Assembly: GCF_014138625.1 (NCBI RefSeq)
Contig: NZ_JACJHY010000004.1
Coordinates: 186,001 to 250,000, forward strand
DNA from: Aminobacter ciceronei
Lineage (GTDB): Bacteria; Pseudomonadota; Alphaproteobacteria; Rhizobiales; Rhizobiaceae
Length of the DNA stretch: 64,000 bases
Direction of reading: 5' to 3'
The first letter of the stretch is position 1. Each line of letters starts with the position of its first letter. The notes below the pieces were generated by a model. It saw nothing but the letters and a program-made list of their open reading frames with translations. It did no database searches and was not told where the DNA came from. A program made the position numbers and the translations under genes. This document shows positions 9,806 to 30,626 of this stretch, one piece after another.

Positions 9806-9835
9806 TTGACAATCATCTGCCAACTGCAGTACACA
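9806..9835 (+). promoter_or_regulatory. toxin-antitoxin promoter with 8-bp palindrome
   Basis: TTGACA (9806-9811) and TACACA (9830-9835) are spaced by 18 nt. The perfect palindrome ACTGCAGT (9823-9830) overlaps the -10 region and is a natural candidate for binding by the HTH antitoxin. A start point about 7 nt after the -10 box would fall on the toxin's GTG at 9842, implying a leaderless message. Confidence 0.5.
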
Positions 9836-9841
9836 AATCTC

Positions 9842-10132
9842 GTGATCGAAATTCGCAGGACCGCTGAGTTCACAGGCTGGCTCACCGACCTCAAGGACCT
9901 CAAGGCCAGGTCCCGCATCCTGACCCGTATCGACCGGCTGGAGTTGGGCAACTCAGGTGATGCCAAATATTTCGACGGCATCGGCGAGCTTCGCGTCGAC
10001 ACTGGTCCTGGCTACCGCGTCTACTTCGTCAAGCGCGGCACAACTGTCGTCATCCTGCTTTGCGGTGGCGATAAGTCGACGCAGGCTTCCGATATCAAGA
10101 AGGCCATTGCGATGGCAAAGGAGGTCAAATGA
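9842..10132 (+). CDS. RelE/ParE-superfamily (HigB-type) addiction toxin
   Basis: 96 residues from the GTG at 9842, giving MIEIRRTAEFTGWLTDLKD, the family's usual N-terminus; an upstream in-frame TTG at 9806 would overlap the -35 box and is rejected. The fold markers are visible: the helical segment DLKARSRILTRIDRLELGN, then GIGELRVDTGPGYRVYFVK and a C-terminal strand VVILLCGGDKSTQASDIKKA. These belong to the 'addiction module killer protein' branch of RelE-like toxins, which act on RNA at the ribosome. It is first in a two-gene operon and overlaps the antitoxin by 4 nt. Toxin-first order is usual for HigBA-like pairs. Confidence 0.9.
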   Translation: MIEIRRTAEFTGWLTDLKDLKARSRILTRIDRLELGNSGDAKYFDGIGELRVDTGPGYRVYFVKRGTTVVILLCGGDKSTQASDIKKAIAMAKEVK

Positions 10133-10422
10133 CCATCAAGACCACAAAATGGGACGCCGCCGAGTTTCTGAACTCCAAGGAGGAAATCCTTGCCTATCTC
10201 GAGGCGGCATTCGAGGACGGCGACCCGTCCGGGATCAAGCTTGCCCTCAACAATGTTGCCCGGGCCCGAGGCATATCCGACCTGGCGAGAGAAACCAAAA
10301 TCTCCAGAGAGGGCATCTACAAGGCGCTGAGTGAGGATGGCGACCCAAAGCTGTCCACACTGCTCAGTATCGTAAAGGCGTTCGGGCTCAATCTATCGGT
10401 CAGAGACCTGGAACACGCTTGA
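10129..10422 (+). CDS. HTH antitoxin of the HigA-like addiction module
   Basis: 97 residues. The N-terminal part (WDAAEFLNSKEEILAYLEAA) is the toxin-wrapping segment common in 'addiction module antidote' proteins. The C-terminal half is a Cro/CI-type helix-turn-helix (ISDLARETKISREGIYKAL, then DPKLSTLLSIVKAFGLNLSV). It should neutralise the toxin and repress the shared promoter. The ATG overlaps the toxin stop (ATGA), so synthesis is coupled. The pair sits directly at the right side of the phage late genes and could stabilise the prophage. Confidence 0.9.
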   Translation: MTIKTTKWDAAEFLNSKEEILAYLEAAFEDGDPSGIKLALNNVARARGISDLARETKISREGIYKALSEDGDPKLSTLLSIVKAFGLNLSVRDLEHA

Positions 10423-16154: not shown

Positions 16155-17798
<1,644 letters not shown>

Positions 17799-17817
17799 TC
17801 AAAACGGCAGGTTCCAC

Positions 17818-18132
17818 TCAGGCGGCCTTCTTCGCCTGGACCGCGGCATCGATCACGCCCATGACGTCGGACTCCTTCATGATCAGGAGATCCTCTCCAT
17901 TGAGCCTGATCTCGGTGCCGGACCATTTGCCGAACAGGATGCGGTCGCCAACCTTGACGTCGAGCGACAGCAACTGGCCGCTGTCGTCGCGGGCGCCCGG
18001 ACCAACGGCGATGACCTCGCCTTCCTGCGGCTTTTCCTTGGCGGTGTCGGGGATGATGATGCCGCCGGCCGTTTTTTCCTCGGCCTCGATGCGGCGGACC
18101 AGAATACGGTCGTGCAATGGACGGAACGTCAT
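17818..18132 (-). CDS. groES: co-chaperonin GroES
   Basis: 104 residues from the ATG at 18132 ([20 protein letters not shown]). The mobile loop that binds GroEL is recognisable ([17 protein letters not shown], about 18-34), as are the roof and core strands ([20 protein letters not shown]). The frame stays open upstream to 18264, but that part has no homologous look and no SD. The gene leads the groESL operon, about 150 nt downstream of a CIRCE-like element. Confidence 0.97.
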
Positions 18133-18282
18133 GTCGTTCTCCTCATGGACAAACAGATTTTTGAGGTTCCTCCGCGCCGCATCCGAAGCGGTGCCGGCGC
18201 GGGGTGCGCGACCCTCTTCGGCATCGCGCGCAATCGATCTGGGTGAGGTGTTTTTGAGTTTCAAGAGGTGGCTGCAAAAATT

Positions 18283-18309
18283 CTAGCCCCCGGCTTTGCC
18301 GAGTGCTAG
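18283..18309 (-). promoter_or_regulatory. CIRCE-like HrcA operator of groESL
   Basis: Read on the groES strand: CTAGCACTC, 9 nt, GGGGGCTAG. The known CIRCE consensus is TTAGCACTC-N9-GAGTGCTAA. The first half matches 8 of 9, and the second has changes in three positions while keeping the GCTA core and the 9-nt spacing. Its place about 150 nt upstream of groES is right for HrcA repression. Confidence 0.75.
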
Positions 18310-18463
18310 CGCGCTGAATTCATGCAGCTATCCGCCGCGAAGCCGCGAAAGCGGGGCTTGCAATTTCGTTCGAATCCTCCAAATTTTTCTGTCCGACGGT
18401 GGTTCGCCTGGGACCAACGTCGGGTCGTCAACGCAAGGAGATTTTTGTAACGGAGGACCATCG

Positions 18464-18811
18464 ATGGAACGAACTGTCCCGACGATTATCCCCTCGATCG
18501 CCCCTGAAATCACGGATCTGTCACTGGACCGTCTGCTTTTCCCGGCCCGGTTCTTCAGCCATCCCGACGACGTGATAACGGACGATCAACTCGGCATTGA
18601 GGAAAAGCGCGCCATTCTTGCCTCCTGGGCATCGGATGCATGCGCGGTCGAATCCATACCGGCCCTGCGCAAGCCGCCAGGCATTGCGGCCCCGGTGACT
18701 TTCGATGCCGTCATGGATGCGCTTCGCCGGCTCGATGAAATCCGCGCCGACGTCGCTTGCAAATTCGACCAGAGCGGCAACCGCGAACGCCCGGAAAGAT
18801 TGGACGCTTGA
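18464..18811 (+). CDS. hypothetical protein paired with usg
   Basis: 115 residues; CGGAGGACC precedes the ATG at 18464. The N-terminal sequence MERTVPTIIPSIAPEITDLS runs into a helical segment (RFFSHPDDVITDDQLGIEEK, RAILASWASDACAVESIPAL) and a C-terminal charged helix (MDALRRLDEIRADVACKF). The DDQL..EEKRAILASWASDA pattern occurs in small alphaproteobacterial proteins beside stress genes, to my knowledge without assigned role. The stop overlaps the usg start (TGATG), so the two are translationally coupled. Confidence 0.75.
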   Translation: MERTVPTIIPSIAPEITDLSLDRLLFPARFFSHPDDVITDDQLGIEEKRAILASWASDACAVESIPALRKPPGIAAPVTFDAVMDALRRLDEIRADVACKFDQSGNRERPERLDA

Positions 18812-19101
18812 TGGTGACCGAGAAGAAGCTTGTGGTCAGCAGGGAATTCCGGCTCCAGATGGAGGGTTACGGCCTCACGACCGCGGAGATCCATTATCAC
18901 CTTCCTGATTACCCGCGGTTGTTGCAGCTTTATGTCTGGCAGGAATACGACCTCGCACCGGAATTCCCAACGCTGAGAGGTTTCCTGAGCTACTGGGAAC
19001 AGGAACTTGAAGGTGCGCTGCATTCCGTGCGCGTTGCCCACCACCGCCTGATCAAACCTGCCGAGTGGCAGGCAGTGGATGGGGTATTTACGATTCAGTG
19101 A
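18811..19101 (+). CDS. usg: Usg family protein
   Basis: 96 residues. The block SREFRLQMEGYGLTTAEIHY followed by HLPDYPRLLQLYVWQEYDLA and PEFPTLRGFLSYWEQELEG and HSVRVAH is the diagnostic Usg sequence (named from the gene upstream of trpF in Caulobacter). Biochemical role is unknown. The ATG overlaps the stop of the previous gene. Here it sits among groESL and hsp20 rather than trp genes, so a stress-linked context is suggested. Confidence 0.9.
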   Translation: MVTEKKLVVSREFRLQMEGYGLTTAEIHYHLPDYPRLLQLYVWQEYDLAPEFPTLRGFLSYWEQELEGALHSVRVAHHRLIKPAEWQAVDGVFTIQ

Positions 19102-19358
19102 GCACCGGGGCCCGGTGCAGCCGGGCCCTCTGTCTCGTCATCGTCGGGTTCAATCAAGTCGATCAGTGCCGCAACCCGCGTTCCGGGCAGAGGGCGGCCT
19201 TGCCCCATCAACGCGTCGTCGCCGAACGCCCACCCCCACGCCTCCCTGAGTTCCGCGAGCGAAGCGCCGGACAGGATCACTTGTGCAATCATCGTATCGT
19301 CCACCGGCCCGAGGACCGAGACAACGTCTTCCCGCGTCATGGTCATCGCTAACTCCAT
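19095..19358 (-). CDS. small acidic conserved hypothetical protein
   Basis: 87 residues, convergent with usg and overlapping its 3' end by 7 nt. The core MTREDVVSVLGPVDDTMIAQ followed by LAELREAWGWAFGDDALMGQ and ALIDLIEPDDDE is a pattern I have seen in many rhizobial small proteins of unknown function. It is acidic and helical with no membrane segment. The real start may be the internal Met of MTRED. Confidence 0.65.
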   Translation of the reverse strand: MELAMTMTREDVVSVLGPVDDTMIAQVILSGASLAELREAWGWAFGDDALMGQGRPLPGTRVAALIDLIEPDDDETEGPAAPGPGAH

Positions 19359-19463
19359 CGATTTGCCAGCAGACTAGATGGGCATTGGACGGAGCGCTTT
19401 CCAGCGGCCCCAACCTGTGAACCCACCACCACGCCGTCAAAATGTCGGCTCGATTGCTCGCCC

Positions 19464-19498
19464 CTTGACGTCGCTCAAATCGCTTCCCAACTCATATT
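19464..19498 (+). promoter_or_regulatory. candidate promoter of hsp20 operon with FixK-like half-sites
   Basis: CTTGACG (19464-19470), then 15 nt later CCCAACTCATATT. This resembles an RpoH-type promoter (CTTGAAA...CCCCAT). The same stretch contains TTGACGTCGCTCAA (19465-19478), which fits the loose TTG-N8-CAA rule of FixK/FNR boxes. Both readings are weak. Confidence 0.35.
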
Positions 19499-19530
19499 CC
19501 GTCGGCCGCTGCAAAGGGTCGACACGGTCA

Positions 19531-19593
19531 GGGAGCGCCAGGCTTCTTGGCGCGCCCTCGTACCTATGTTGCTCCAAGGAGGATGTAGCTATG
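19531..19593 (+). ncRNA. ROSE-like RNA thermometer in hsp20 5' UTR
   Basis: Two adjacent hairpins precede the hsp20 ATG. The first has stem GCGCCA/TGGCGC (19535-19540 with 19548-19553). The second includes TTGCTCC (19569-19575) facing the Shine-Dalgarno AAGGAGGA (19576-19583). Pairing of a U(U/C)GCU block with the SD is the defining feature of rhizobial ROSE elements, which melt on heating and free the ribosome site. Confidence 0.6.
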
Positions 19594-20058
19594 AGAACAA
19601 ATATGGACTTCTCTCCCTTCTACAGGTCGAGCATCGGCTTTGACCGGATTTTCGACCTGCTCGAAAAATCCAGTTCCCCACAGGCCGACAATTGGCCGCC
19701 CTATGACATCGTCAAGCTCGGTGAAGACACCTATCGCATCGCGCTTGCGGTAGCTGGGTTCGCAGAAGACGAGCTTTCGATCACCCATGAGCCAAACCTG
19801 CTCGTCATCAACGGCTCGAAGACGGAAAATGGCGACGTTTTTTATCTCCACCATGGACTGGCGATGAGGACCTTTGACCGTCGTTTCGAACTCGCCGACC
19901 ATGTCAGCGTCATGGGCGCCAAGCTCGAGAACGGCCTGCTGATCATCGACCTCAAGAAGGAAATTCCCGAGGAGATGAAGCCGCGACGGATCGCGATCAA
20001 CGCCGGCGCTGACACGAAGTCAGCCTCGAAGCGGATCGAAGGCAACGTAGCGGCATGA
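19591..20058 (+). CDS. small heat-shock protein Hsp20 (IbpA-like, class A)
   Basis: 155 residues. The N-terminus MRTNMDFSPFYRSSIGFDRI matches class A rhizobial Hsp20/IbpA proteins. The alpha-crystallin domain runs from about residue 42 (YDIVKLGEDTYRIALAVAGF) to GLLIIDLKKEIPEEMKPRRI, including the conserved A-x-x-x-n-G-L motif as AKLENGLLIIDL. The C-terminal I-x-I is present (IAI). It holds unfolded proteins for refolding. The 5' leader looks like a ROSE thermometer. A second hsp20 follows after 98 nt. Confidence 0.92.
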   Translation: MRTNMDFSPFYRSSIGFDRIFDLLEKSSSPQADNWPPYDIVKLGEDTYRIALAVAGFAEDELSITHEPNLLVINGSKTENGDVFYLHHGLAMRTFDRRFELADHVSVMGAKLENGLLIIDLKKEIPEEMKPRRIAINAGADTKSASKRIEGNVAA

Positions 20059-20079
20059 TCTTGACTGAACCGTCCAGCG

Positions 20080-20106
20080 CGACACCCCATCTGGGGTGGG
20101 GTGTCG
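20080..20106 (+). other. intercistronic hairpin between the two hsp20 genes
   Basis: A perfect 10-bp stem CGACACCCCA/TGGGGTGTCG with a 7-nt loop. No T-run follows. It may act as an mRNA processing or stability element that sets the ratio of the two Hsp20 proteins, or as a partial terminator. Confidence 0.55.
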
Positions 20107-20156
20107 TTGCGACCAAACGAGAAAGGACAAACAAGAAAGACGAAAGGAAAAAGGCA

Positions 20157-20666
20157 ATGAGTGTACGTGACCTGATCCCATGGAACCGTGGCAACAACCA
20201 GGCCCCGGCGATCAATCGCAGTGAGGACATGGATCCGTTCATGTCGCTGCATCGCAACGTCAACCGGCTGTTTGACGAGGTGTTCCGGGACTTTGACACA
20301 CCGTCGGTTCTTGGCCGCATGACGCCTCGCAATGGCACCTGGCCAAGCGTCGAATTCTCGGAGAACGACAAGGAAATCCGGGTGGTCGCGGAAATGCCCG
20401 GGCTTGACGAGAACGATGTCGAGGTTCTGCTTGAAGACGGTGTTCTCACACTTCGCGGCGAGAAGAAATCGGAAACCGAAGACAAGGATCGTCAGTTCAG
20501 CGAACGCTATTACGGGCGTTTCGAGCGGCGCCTTGCTCTTGGCCGCGAAGTCGAGGAGGACAAGGTGGAGGCGGCATTCAAGAACGGCGTCCTCACCGTG
20601 ACCCTGCCCAAGACGGAAAAGGCGCAGGCGAACGCCAAGCGCATCACAATCAATACCACCAAGTGA
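20157..20666 (+). CDS. small heat-shock protein Hsp20 (class C-like)
   Basis: 169 residues from the ATG at 20157, preceded by AAAGG. The N-terminus is MSVRDLIPWNRGNNQAPAIN and PFMSLHRNVNRLFDEVFRDF, typical of the Hsp20 branch found across bacteria and archaea. The crystallin domain covers PSVEFSENDKEIRVVAEMPG to KNGVLTVTLPKTEKAQANAK, with A-x-x-x-n-GVL motif AAFKNGVLTVTL. The C-terminal I-x-I motif is ITI in KRITINTTK. It likely forms mixed oligomers or works in parallel with the first Hsp20. Confidence 0.92.
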   Translation: MSVRDLIPWNRGNNQAPAINRSEDMDPFMSLHRNVNRLFDEVFRDFDTPSVLGRMTPRNGTWPSVEFSENDKEIRVVAEMPGLDENDVEVLLEDGVLTLRGEKKSETEDKDRQFSERYYGRFERRLALGREVEEDKVEAAFKNGVLTVTLPKTEKAQANAKRITINTTK

Positions 20667-27848: not shown

Positions 27849-28124
27849 TCACCGGAAATCGACGGCAGTCAGCGTGTAGTAGGTGCGGCGACCATGGGAA
27901 TAGGCTTCGCGCGCGACATCGTAGATTGACTTGCGCGCTACGTCGAACGCGGTCAGGCATTCTGACTCGGACAGCTGTGTCCCGCTTGCACAGGCCCCTG
28001 CTCTCGCCAATGCGCCGGCTTCGACGAAGAAGCGCACTTCGAACATGCCGTCGTGACCGATGAAGCGGACGGCATTTTTTGCTTGGTCGAAGCTGCGGCT
28101 CGGATTGAGAAATGCAAGCGTCAC
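27849..28124 (-). CDS. DUF1488 family protein, last gene of overlapping micro-operon
   Basis: 91 residues. MTLAFLNPSRSFDQAKNAVR followed by FIGHDGMFEVRFFVEAGALA and a C-terminal YSHGRRTYYTLTAVDFR is the DUF1488 pattern (short protein opening with N-PSRS, then 'V-F-GHDG', and ending in RGRxxxYxLxAxDF). Function unknown; family members are frequent near stress and redox genes in Proteobacteria. It overlaps the previous gene by 4 nt (ATGA) and ends a chain of six such genes. Confidence 0.85.
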   Translation of the reverse strand: MTLAFLNPSRSFDQAKNAVRFIGHDGMFEVRFFVEAGALARAGACASGTQLSESECLTAFDVARKSIYDVAREAYSHGRRTYYTLTAVDFR

Positions 28125-28432
28125 GTGTTGCCTCCTGTTGCGCTCAGCCCAAACGCTTCCGGCCCGCTCCGTCCCCTGTGGCGGCCTGTATTGCGAAGAT
28201 TGAGAAAAATCATCCCGCTCGTCGCACGAGACCGGGTCAGCCCCGTCATCGCCTGGCCGTCGATATTGACCGGGATGCCCGTGAAGACATGATAGACGGT
28301 CCAGGAGCGATCCGCTTCGATGCGGCGGCCAACTTGATGTTCGATGGAGTAAGGCGCCCCGCCTTCATTGTCCCAGATGTCGATCGCGGCGGCATCGCGT
28401 CTGGGTTGGCTTTCGGTGCTGCGGTCCGTCAT
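28121..28432 (-). CDS. hypothetical protein of overlapping micro-operon
   Basis: 103 residues, acidic start (MTDRSTESQPRRDAAAIDIW), a middle with VGRRIEADRSWTVYHVFTGI and VNIDGQAMTGLTRSRATSGM and a basic, Arg/Gly-rich tail (RNTGRHRGRSGPEAFG). No family recognised. The segment 'sWTVYHVFTGiPv' followed by 'a..GLtRs.At.gM..LN' is a compact domain seen, to my memory, in small rhizobial proteins. It overlaps both neighbours by 4 nt. Confidence 0.7.
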   Translation of the reverse strand: MTDRSTESQPRRDAAAIDIWDNEGGAPYSIEHQVGRRIEADRSWTVYHVFTGIPVNIDGQAMTGLTRSRATSGMIFLNLRNTGRHRGRSGPEAFGLSATGGNT

Positions 28433-28671
28433 GGTCGTGACCTTCCTTCATAGAGTGCGTCGGCATCTACGTCCCCGGAATAGAGAACCCTGCCATCCGC
28501 GTCGGTAATCGTGATGCCGTCCGGCCGCTGCGGCAGGTCGAGGGTTTGCGACAGGCGCAGTGCAAGCTCTATCGCCCCCTCGACGTCGGCGACTTCATCT
28601 GTCTCGCGGCCCACGACCGCATGGGCGTCGTCCTTGCCGCGGGTGCGATAGAATTCGATCACGATCTTCAT
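28429..28671 (-). CDS. hypothetical protein of overlapping micro-operon
   Basis: 80 residues: MKIVIEFYRTRGKDDAHAVV, then EVADVEGAIELALRLSQTLD and PQRPDGITITDADGRVLYSG. A beta-alpha-beta-beta layout with an acidic surface; no membrane segment, no catalytic motif. It overlaps the next gene by 4 nt (ATGA) and is entered by an ATGA overlap from the 45-residue gene. Confidence 0.7.
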   Translation of the reverse strand: MKIVIEFYRTRGKDDAHAVVGRETDEVADVEGAIELALRLSQTLDLPQRPDGITITDADGRVLYSGDVDADALYEGRSRP

Positions 28672-28805
28672 CTGCCGCCCGCGGTCACCTTTCTGGCGAG
28701 CTTTATCTGGCTGCCGAACGTGACTTCACGCATCGGAGGTGTTTTCACCTGGGCCTGCTTGGGCTTTCGAATCTCGCGACTGCTGCGCTTTTGTCCCTTA
28801 GCCAT
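28668..28805 (-). CDS. 45-residue basic protein of overlapping micro-operon
   Basis: Reads MAKGQKRSSREIRKPKQAQV, continues KTPPMREVTFGSQIKLARKV and ends TAGGR. It is very basic (about 13 Lys/Arg). The opening M-x-K-G-Q-x-R-S-x-R-E-x-(R/K)-K-P-K recurs in tiny alphaproteobacterial proteins. Its ATG overlaps the end of the upstream gene by 8 nt and its TGA overlaps the ATG of the next gene (ATGA). That double overlap makes it very likely a real gene although it is short. It could bind nucleic acid, by charge only. Confidence 0.7.
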   Translation of the reverse strand: MAKGQKRSSREIRKPKQAQVKTPPMREVTFGSQIKLARKVTAGGR

Positions 28806-29082
28806 GGCCGAATGCCCTTTCGATGAGACTTGCGTCGTCCTGCCCCAGTGGCGCGCCGAGCAGTTCGATATTGTCTTCGGACGTCACGCGCTCATGAAGT
28901 TCTCGTTCGTTGCGGATGCGGTACTGAGGCGAGTCTTCTCTCGCGGGCAACGTGCCCGTAATGCGGTATGCCTGCGTGCCGAAGCTTCGCTTCAACCGTA
29001 CGGTCTGCCCTATCGAAAAACGATGGATCGTCGGGTCGCGCCGGGCAGGATGCTTGCCTCGCATGAGGAAGGTCGCAGTCAT
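28798..29082 (-). CDS. hypothetical protein of overlapping micro-operon
   Basis: 94 residues: MTATFLMRGKHPARRDPTIH, then RFSIGQTVRLKRSFGTQAYR and ITGTLPAREDSPQYRIRNER and ELHERVTSEDNIELL. The order 'F..G..V......f..aYrItg.LP..e..pQYRIR.e.E.heRv..E..' suggests a small beta-barrel-like domain known from rhizobial proteins of unknown function. The IRNE..HERV piece is reminiscent of SH3-like nucleic-acid-binding folds, but this is only a resemblance. It overlaps the previous gene by 4 nt. Confidence 0.75.
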   Translation of the reverse strand: MTATFLMRGKHPARRDPTIHRFSIGQTVRLKRSFGTQAYRITGTLPAREDSPQYRIRNERELHERVTSEDNIELLGAPLGQDDASLIERAFGHG

Positions 29083-29339
29083 GATTGCCGGTCCCTTTCC
29101 AGTGCGGCTTCGAGGTCTGCCGGATTGATCGGCACCATCTGTTGTTTAGGCCCCGGCGTGTCGATCGCCGGCAGATGGAAGAATGTCTTGGTTCGCAGCC
29201 AGGCCACTCGGGAGACGCTTTCGATCAGTTCTTCGTCTCGATCGACACGGTAGGCTCCCGCCGGTTGCTGTCCGGCGATGCCCGCGAATGAAAATGCGGA
29301 TGCGAAGTGGACGACGGTTTCTATGGTTCGGCTGGTCAC
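29079..29339 (-). CDS. first gene of overlapping micro-operon, hypothetical protein
   Basis: 86 residues from the GTG at 29339, supported by GGAG about 9 nt upstream; the frame is open to 29396. The sequence TSRTIETVVHFASAFSFAGI runs into AGQQPAGAYRVDRDEELIES and a C-terminal PINPADLEAALERDRQS. The order 't.F..pF...g.....PaG.Y.v..deE.ie' is a common small-domain pattern in alphaproteobacterial proteins of unknown role. Two small hairpins cover its leader, and the SD lies in the loop of one. Its end overlaps the second gene by 4 nt. Confidence 0.7.
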   Translation of the reverse strand: MTSRTIETVVHFASAFSFAGIAGQQPAGAYRVDRDEELIESVSRVAWLRTKTFFHLPAIDTPGPKQQMVPINPADLEAALERDRQS

Positions 29340-29341
29340 GG

Positions 29342-29378
29342 CTGCGTTCTCCGCAGGATTGCGCGGGATACGTCCCGC
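29342..29378 (-). promoter_or_regulatory. two leader hairpins over the ribosome site of the micro-operon
   Basis: Read on the transcribed strand, GCGGGA/TCCCGC with loop CGTA (29363-29378), followed by CTGCG/CGCAG with loop GAGAA (29342-29356), which contains part of the SD GGAG. The GTG start follows 2 nt later. This could tune translation of the first gene and, by coupling, of all six. Confidence 0.45.
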
Positions 29379-29519
29379 AACGCTCTGACGCCACATTCAC
29401 GGTCAACGTCAGAGATCACTCCAAGCTCCGCTTGAGCTGGATTCATGTGCCATGGGAAGGACGATCGCCCGCTTTCCGATGATGCCCAGTCCGCGGTGGC
29501 CACGACCCCGCCCGGCGCT

Positions 29520-30419
29520 CTAATGCTTCATCATCATCGGCAGCGTGCTATGCGACAACAGGTAGTGGGTGACGCGACCGAGCAGCAGCTCCAGGAAATA
29601 TCCATGCTTGAAGGCGCCGATCAGCAGGCAGGTGGCCTTCGCGGTTTTCGCGAAATCGAGGATCGTTTCGCCGACGGAGCAGTTGCCTGAGCTGGTCGTG
29701 ACAACGTCGCCGTCCAGCTCGAGCTGCTTGAGCAGTTCCCGCGCCGTGAACTGATTACGTCCGTCGGTTTTGTCGTTGATGCATAGAACGGTGATGTGAT
29801 CGGCTGCCGCCAGCCAGCGTCTCGCTGCGACGACGGCGCGCTGGGCATGATCGTGCTGCTTCCAGCCAACCACGATGTGACCCATCAGATCACCGGCATA
29901 TTGGCCGGGCGGCGGCGCCAGGACGAGCTTGTGTTCGTTGAACAGAAGGTCGTGAAACGCATCGCGGGCATCTATGTTGCCATGGCAGGGGGCGACGGCG
30001 AGTGCCGTCTCATGGCATTCGCTCGTCACGCAGCGATTAAGGTCGCCGCGGCAATCATCAAGACGAAGACGGTCTCGACCCGGCTTGCCTCGCTTCCAGT
30101 CTTCGAATGCGGAAGTGACCCGCTCCAACCGCTGCGCCGGCGAGCCTTCGTCGAGGTCACGCAGCATCTGCAGGTCGATCTCCTCGGCGGCCGCGATCAT
30201 CCTTTCAGGATCGGCGCCGACATGGGCGGCGGCCATGGTGCCGCCGACGGCACACGCTGCGTCTTCGGCGATATCCAGGCAAAGCCGCGTGGTTGCCGGA
30301 TCGGCTAACAAGGCGAGAACGTCGGCATGGACGGTCAGCTCGTGGACAGGGTCTTTGAGAATGACGCCAGCCTCCGCCGCCGGCGGTTTTTGTGGGTTGT
30401 CGTTCGAGGGCGCTTCCAT
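29520..30419 (-). CDS. universal stress protein (tandem UspA-like)
   Basis: 299 residues from the ATG at 30419, where AAGGAGG gives a near-ideal SD. The protein starts with a disordered tail (MEAPSNDNPQKPPAAEAGVI), then two Usp-like halves. The second is clear: VVGWKQHDHAQRAVVAARRW and a nucleotide-binding stretch CLLIGAFKHGYFLELLLGRV. The canonical G-x2-G-x9-G-S/T ATP motif is degenerate, so ATP binding is unsure. In rhizobia such proteins are commonly induced by low oxygen or stationary phase. The micro-operon begins about 180 nt downstream on the same strand. Confidence 0.85.
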   Translation of the reverse strand: MEAPSNDNPQKPPAAEAGVILKDPVHELTVHADVLALLADPATTRLCLDIAEDAACAVGGTMAAAHVGADPERMIAAAEEIDLQMLRDLDEGSPAQRLERVTSAFEDWKRGKPGRDRLRLDDCRGDLNRCVTSECHETALAVAPCHGNIDARDAFHDLLFNEHKLVLAPPPGQYAGDLMGHIVVGWKQHDHAQRAVVAARRWLAAADHITVLCINDKTDGRNQFTARELLKQLELDGDVVTTSSGNCSVGETILDFAKTAKATCLLIGAFKHGYFLELLLGRVTHYLLSHSTLPMMMKH

Positions 30420-30626
30420 GCCGGACCTCCTTCCGCAATGCTCCCGCATCGCTTCTGGTCCATCGGGTGTAAGTTTACTCCGGCGTCTCCCCGCTCGCAA
30501 CGCCGCTGGCATGCCGGTTGGCGGCTGCGTTGGTCGGCTTCCGCTCGCTTCAAGCCGGTTGCGCGCACAGGCAACAGGACGGAATTTTTCGGTTCGGCCG
30601 TCGAGGATCGCCGCCCCGCAGAACCA

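Follow-up and report, generated by a model that had tools for sequence, protein, structure and literature searches.

Six small genes, A to F, on the minus strand of a 64,000-nt stretch of the Aminobacter ciceronei genome (hereafter the window; GCF_014138625.1, NZ_JACJHY010000004.1, positions 186,001-250,000 of the forward strand) form, as judged from sequence comparison, a real conserved operon of the Hyphomicrobiales, with all six genes under apparent purifying selection. The operon is read here as a chaperone-linked stress operon under cspA-type RNA control, a reading held with modest confidence, and with less where the window's own copy is concerned. New here are the adjacency to groES and the leader RNA elements E1 and E2; an earlier note on this DNA had described the gene chain and missed the leader RNA, with its tie to cspA and to αr35. 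No earlier description of the operon or of E1 was found in the open-licence literature searched.

In the ORF list of the window, the six frames span 27849-29339 (Table 1), with overlaps of 4, 8, 4, 4 and 4 nt at A/B, B/C, C/D, D/E and E/F; the ORF coordinates thus bear out exactly the six frames, the sizes, the shared strand and the five overlaps of the earlier note, as well as its 45-residue, highly basic C. The extent it gave, 27849-29378, holds at the lower end but is slightly long at the upper one, since the start of A at 29339 agrees with that of the aligned relatives. Codon scores prefer the annotated frame in all six genes, weakly for C (3.4 against 1.2 for the best rival frame), and the median dN/dS values from A to F among similar pairs of named relatives are 0.19, 0.32, 0.16, 0.35, 0.35 and 0.19, with values below 1 in 772 of the 774 pairs, which are not independent of each other. 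Because codon scores favour the annotated frames and the medians lie at 0.16-0.35, the operon is more than a chance chain of open frames.

Table 1. Positions in the window of the six genes, their upstream neighbour and the leader features.
Feature	Position	Strand	Remarks
Gene F	27849..28124	-	GTG start, 91 aa; DUF1488 (PF07369), Pfam E 5e-16
Gene E	28121..28432	-	103 aa; conserved core SWTVYHVFTG
Gene D	28429..28671	-	80 aa; weak DUF6894 similarity, under the curated cut-off
Gene C	28668..28805	-	45 aa, highly basic (MAKGQKRSSREIRKPK...)
Gene B	28798..29082	-	94 aa; window protein without family match
Gene A	29079..29339	-	GTG start, 86 aa; no Pfam, NCBIfam, PADLOC or PHROGs match
Region upstream of A, up to the USP-domain gene	29340..29519	-	
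Hairpin GCGGGA-CGUA-UCCCGC	29363..29378	-	E3-like, just before the ribosome site; from sequence and folds of 80 leaders
E1-like box GTGGCGTCAGAG	29383..29394	-	one mismatch to GCGGYGTCASAG
Hairpin CUCUGACG-N16-CGUCAGAG	29383..29414	-	in the place taken by the αr35-type E2 in relatives; no intact E2
USP-domain gene, upstream neighbour on the same strand	29520..30512	-	PF00582, E 1.2e-10

Searches with single proteins give relatives of A in 43 of the family's 151 genomes, and of B and E in 19 and 8, respectively, of the order's 121, and a profile of A detects it in 37 of 385 genomes across the class; the A. ciceronei genome itself holds a second copy of A on contig C1 and a second DUF1488 gene on C11. 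The order A-B-C-D-E-F, which the earlier note had proposed to check across relatives, recurs in them, with C present between B and D, although B, C or E modules are also met on their own behind cspA. Downstream of 115 distinct A sites (identical sequences and sites with less than 300 nt upstream being left out), B is found at 101, C at 73, D at 66, E at 72 and F at 69, with families called by profiles built for this analysis, among which that of the 45-residue C is short and may overcall. Seventy-two of these 115 sites come from named loci; of the 114 loci that share one conserved peptide pattern, the best 80 were retained, which favours close relatives; half of the evidence stems from two genera, as Mesorhizobium (29) and Rhizobium (22) account for 51 of these best 80 loci, the others coming from Aureimonas, Xanthobacter, Prosthecomicrobium, Methylobrevis, Shinella and further genera. 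One Mesorhizobium strain (sp. WSM3860, L074) carries two operon copies on opposite strands, about 6 kb apart. Among the loci L065-L145, a 279-aa-type gene, perhaps with a transglutaminase-like N-terminus, lies about 1.75 kb downstream of A in 40 of 81, and a short second relative of E (about 63 aa) lies beyond groESL, about 2.8 kb upstream of A, in 12, in 11 cases on the opposite strand from A.

The short overlaps also recur in relatives: among the loci L065-L145, with start codons picked by script, A/B overlap by 4 nt in 45 of 78 pairs, B/C overlap in 50 of 51, D/E by 4 nt in 24 of 33, and E/F by 4 nt in 28 and by 10 nt in 12 of 46. Together with the recurrent gene order, this would suit a complex of small proteins whose stoichiometry is fixed by translational coupling, as the earlier note had it. 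Strict coupling, however, breaks at C/D, which overlap in none of 41 relatives from the same loci (commonest gaps 16-37 nt) and which make the 4-nt overlap of the window exceptional. This and the variable gene content, with all of B to F downstream of A at only 45 of the 115 distinct sites and with B, C, E and F also occurring apart, weaken the claim of a fixed stoichiometry; moreover, four-nt overlaps are common in compact operons. Such a complex is, therefore, considered unlikely.

Nothing in the proteins themselves points to an activity. For A, B, C and E, Pfam and NCBIfam offer no believable family, and the statement of the earlier note that only the last gene falls in a named family is sound: F matches Pfam PF07369 with confidence (58.9 bits, cut-off 22), while D touches DUF6894 (PF21834) below the cut-off (E 0.039, 14.5 of 24.1 bits), as do 9 of the 31 relatives of D, with a best E of 0.002. 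The D profile also matches the PDB chain 8fjf_A ‘H10’ at E 1.5e-6. Compared with PDB sequences by phmmer, F has no relative below E 0.13; the DUF1488 fold (PDB 2gpi, Shew3726) is described in the available portion of PMC2954204. The B profile has only a chance-like match in the PDB and one of 44 B relatives touches the YccV-like family (E 0.012), and an SH3-like barrel for B is a guess. The AlphaFold model of A (mean pLDDT 83.7) has four strands, with a helix at the C-terminus, and that of E a small strand-helix core, confident at residues 30-80 (mean pLDDT 69.1); as neither model is matched in the PDB by Foldseek at E 0.001 or better, no fold is assigned to them, and the A and E profiles find nothing in the PDB up to E 1. 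PADLOC gives no match for the six proteins up to E 1, hence no known anti-phage defence system, and PHROGs gives nothing above a weak match at E 0.041.

At 50 of the 115 distinct A sites, groES lies divergent from A and within 900 nt; in the set of 81 loci, it is divergent and close in 43, while a groEL family gene is present in 47 and groES in 46. On the groES side, 39 of the 81 intergenic regions hold a CIRCE-like repeat, about 420-460 nt from A. The stress setting claimed in the earlier note is thus borne out by chaperone and stress neighbours, with a link to groES that relatives show far more strongly than the window, in which groESL lies about 10 kb from the operon (16155 to about 18264, minus strand). 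The chaperone island of the window (16155-20666) comprises groEL and groES on the minus strand, what we take from the sequence to be a usg-like gene and, on the plus strand, two Hsp20-type genes, together with a ROSE element. Rfam places this element only at 19502-19597, before Hsp20, and not at A-F, so that ROSE control of the operon was discarded. At 9806-10422 of the window, two small adjacent genes presumably encode a RelE/HigB-type toxin and its antitoxin. In Mesorhizobium loti, according to the accessible part of PMC3989490, heat induces an sHSP pair, the groEL gene mlr2394 and a usg gene, and of the five groEL genes just one is heat-responsive.

A different stress circuit is conceivable, namely that the operon belongs to a low-oxygen regulon like the lxa locus of Burkholderia cenocepacia, in which the DUF1488 gene BCAM0277 is flanked by the USP gene BCAM0276 and the heat-shock gene BCAM0278 and the three rise together (PMC6127331, as far as the available excerpt goes). 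The USP gene that adjoins the operon in the window would fit this idea, but the 81 upstream regions contain neither the FixK/FNR site TTGA-N6-TCAA (0 of 81) nor RpoN sites (0 of 81), and their NifA sites stand at background (9 against 7.78 in shuffles). A low-oxygen role, low oxygen being one of the conditions that the earlier note proposed to check, finds no support, and membership in such a regulon appears very improbable. For RpoH, the textbook patterns, tried first, occur in 0 and 1 of the 81 regions, and a looser box, CTTG...[CT]AT[ACT]T, written after the alignment had been seen, occurs at 43 of the 115 A sites (shuffles 1.84, other strand 1), with 30 of the 43 at about 260-269 nt from A. 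As the looser pattern was set after the alignment and the textbook ones nearly fail, control by RpoH is only suggested.

The most informative part of the operon is its leader. In an alignment of 20 groES-A intergenic regions, the roughly 230 nt before A are strikingly conserved and contain E2, a long hairpin with the tip GACCRCGGAUGUACYGGC and the loop GGAUGUA, whose core is found at 68 of the 115 distinct A sites, at a narrow distance from A (mostly 88-100 nt). In alignment A4 of 25 leaders, the 31 pairs of E2 are formed in 89.5% of cells against 20.6-47.5% for slid structures, with modest covariation, since 110 of 500 shuffles have as many pairs changed on both sides. The stronger evidence comes from an alignment-free arm-swap test on dereplicated sets (9 A leaders, 25 other sites, 32 together), in which the E2 arms pair better with their own than with swapped partners, none of 2000 permutations being as good in each set. 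At E 0.001, the leader hairpin model R1 hits 33 of the order's 297 genomes, and 34 loci yield 26 sites with a readable E2 core, of which 18 lie just behind cspA, 4 before A-type operons only and 4 in neither position; 11 of 12 cores first classed as lying elsewhere were placed behind cspA by reading the preceding letters, the remaining one (L114) being an A leader. The A. ciceronei genome has five E2 core sites, one with a mismatch, and none with the reversed control. In Methylobrevis pamukkalensis (L129:9655-9890), two E2 hairpins stand in tandem before A.

This hairpin core is that of αr35 (RF02346). The loop GGAUGUA belongs to αr35/SmelB053, and related 3'-UTRs follow cold-shock genes in 29 of 33 cases, according to the available text of PMC3927594; for smrB35, the excerpt of PMC7143759 lists RpoD and RpoH1/2. 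In the A. ciceronei genome, αr35 itself is found at C1:370598 (L146; 50.3 bits, gathering score 45), and this bona fide sRNA lies about 35 kb from the cspA-linked copy of the operon; the cspA 3'-UTRs at C3 and C25 score 31.2 and 30.5 bits. The second stem-loop of αr35, with its GGAUGUA loop, is present in relatives and in the paralogue of the same genome. The leaders are αr35-like and not members of the family, since they fall short of the Rfam gathering score and of the three stem-loops with terminator; specifically, no RF02346 reaches gathering in seven leader loci. The conserved region could in principle be a free-standing αr35-like sRNA gene upstream of A and not a cis-acting leader, as αr35 is a trans-encoded sRNA and a promoter-like box followed by hairpins would suit a short transcript. 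Against this stand the score of the L076 leader against αr35 (18.2 bits of the 45 required, core only), the narrow spacing of the core from A and the replacement of the third stem-loop, the terminator, by a hairpin running into the SD of A. A separate sRNA gene is quite unlikely on these grounds, and a cis-acting leader is retained as the preferred reading.

Upstream of E2, about 200 nt before A, lies E1 (GCGGYGUCASAG, then GACCCGCCA), which by inspection could form a GCGG-Y-GUC/GAC-CCGC hairpin and which is found at 59 of the 115 distinct A sites. All 47 E1 matches in the loci L066-L145 are A leaders, 8 of them recognised by hand from their position. Of the 151 family genomes, 22 carry E1, at 29 sites in all (the reversed pattern gives 2), and the first gene downstream is A at 18, cspA at 4, B at 1, C at 2 and none of these at 4, so that E1 precedes one of these families or cspA at 25 of the 29. 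The distance from E1 to E2 is 90-119 nt in 46 leaders without cspA and 330-342 nt in four cspA units, with 342 nt in the A. ciceronei genome; the difference of about 225-230 nt comes close to a cspA frame plus a few bases and suggests that one arrangement derives from the other. Moreover, the small-protein genes themselves follow cspA directly, as A-B-C-D in the A. ciceronei genome and in L187, A-B-C in L055, C and A in L177 and L219, B in L173 and L180, E in L178, B and C in L019 and L020, and C in L212. Beyond the E1 box, the degree to which cspA 5'-UTRs resemble operon leaders varies (strong resemblance in L210, mostly none in L147), and the cspA thermoregulator RF01766 scores 27.5 and 22.5 bits at the cspA loci L148 and L149, below the gathering score of 78, with no match up to E 0.1 at L147 and L022. 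At 38 of the 115 A sites cspA, groES and E2 are all absent together, and at 30 of them E1, E2 and groES are.

A wider reading of these observations is that E1 and E2 mark an unrecognised post-transcriptional regulon of the Hyphomicrobiales that comprises cspA, αr35 and the GroESL-linked operon, in which the leader would be the frame of a cspA transcript that lost the cspA ORF, or the frame into which it was inserted, and CspA or an encoded small protein would read the hairpins and thereby close a feedback loop. This proposal is put forward tentatively and is doubtful as it stands.

The window's own leader departs from this pattern. Its E1-like box is the sole match with at most one mismatch in the 64 kb, where 3.18 are expected by chance over the whole window, while the chance of finding it on the right strand of the 180-nt leader is estimated at about 0.005; it lies 44 nt from A against about 200 nt in relatives. 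For E2, the R1 model gives no match in this leader with default filters and 6.2 bits (E 0.073) with filters off, and an Rfam scan of 29300-29620 gives no αr35 up to E 10. The two hairpins that the earlier note placed at the first ribosome site (GCGGGA-CGUA-UCCCGC and CUGCG-GAGAA-CGCAG, with the SD in the loop of the latter) can both be drawn, but the stretch shows no folding advantage over shuffles (z -1.22; 24 of 200 do as well). With E2 undetected, E1 carrying a mismatch and hairpins kept in place, the leader of the window copy seems to have been eroded or rebuilt, while the paralogue on C1, which reads E1-cspA-E2-A-B-C-D, keeps E1, cspA and E2.

In the preferred reading, that of a chaperone-linked stress operon under cspA-type RNA control, the products of A to F would be small, probably cytosolic accessory proteins of the proteostasis or temperature response of the Hyphomicrobiales, which may assist chaperones or RNA chaperones under temperature or protein stress. 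In the better-kept copies, the operon would be transcribed divergently from groESL, and its mRNA would start with a leader of about 200 nt made of elements that also frame cspA mRNAs, in the order E1 (hairpin GCGGYGUC...GACCCGC, also found in cspA 5'-UTRs), E2 and the hairpin before the SD of A. E1 and E2 may act at the RNA level and put the translation or the stability of the operon under the same control as the cspA mRNAs; a CspA-type or Hfq-type RNA chaperone, an RNase, or αr35 serving as a decoy, are candidates for the trans-acting factor.

The operon thereby adds a second class of mRNA with the αr35/cspA 3'-UTR hairpin, at the opposite end of the message and beside groESL, and provides a testable partner for the puzzle of αr35, which, together with the cspA 3'-UTR hairpin, was described in 2011 without a known function in the available part of PMC3927594. 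Likewise, six small protein families, five of which are without a confident Pfam family, are placed in one regulatory context and receive a first hypothesis of function.

Among known systems, the DUF1488 family includes F and none of the other five operon genes. The lxa locus of B. cenocepacia resembles the operon in having a DUF1488 gene beside USP and heat-shock genes, as far as the excerpt of PMC6127331 shows, whereas the operon described here has the E1/E2 leader in place of a FixK/FNR-type site. The CIRCE-controlled groESL operons of rhizobia are matched by the divergent groESL with its CIRCE-like repeat; in contrast, this repeat lies on the groES side and A-F has a conserved leader of its own. 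Lastly, unlike αr35 (RF02346; SmelB053/smrB35) and the cspA 3'-UTRs, E2 stands here in a 5' leader before small-protein genes and without the terminator stem-loop, yet the same hairpin core is shared by the A leaders of relatives and by the paralogue in the A. ciceronei genome.
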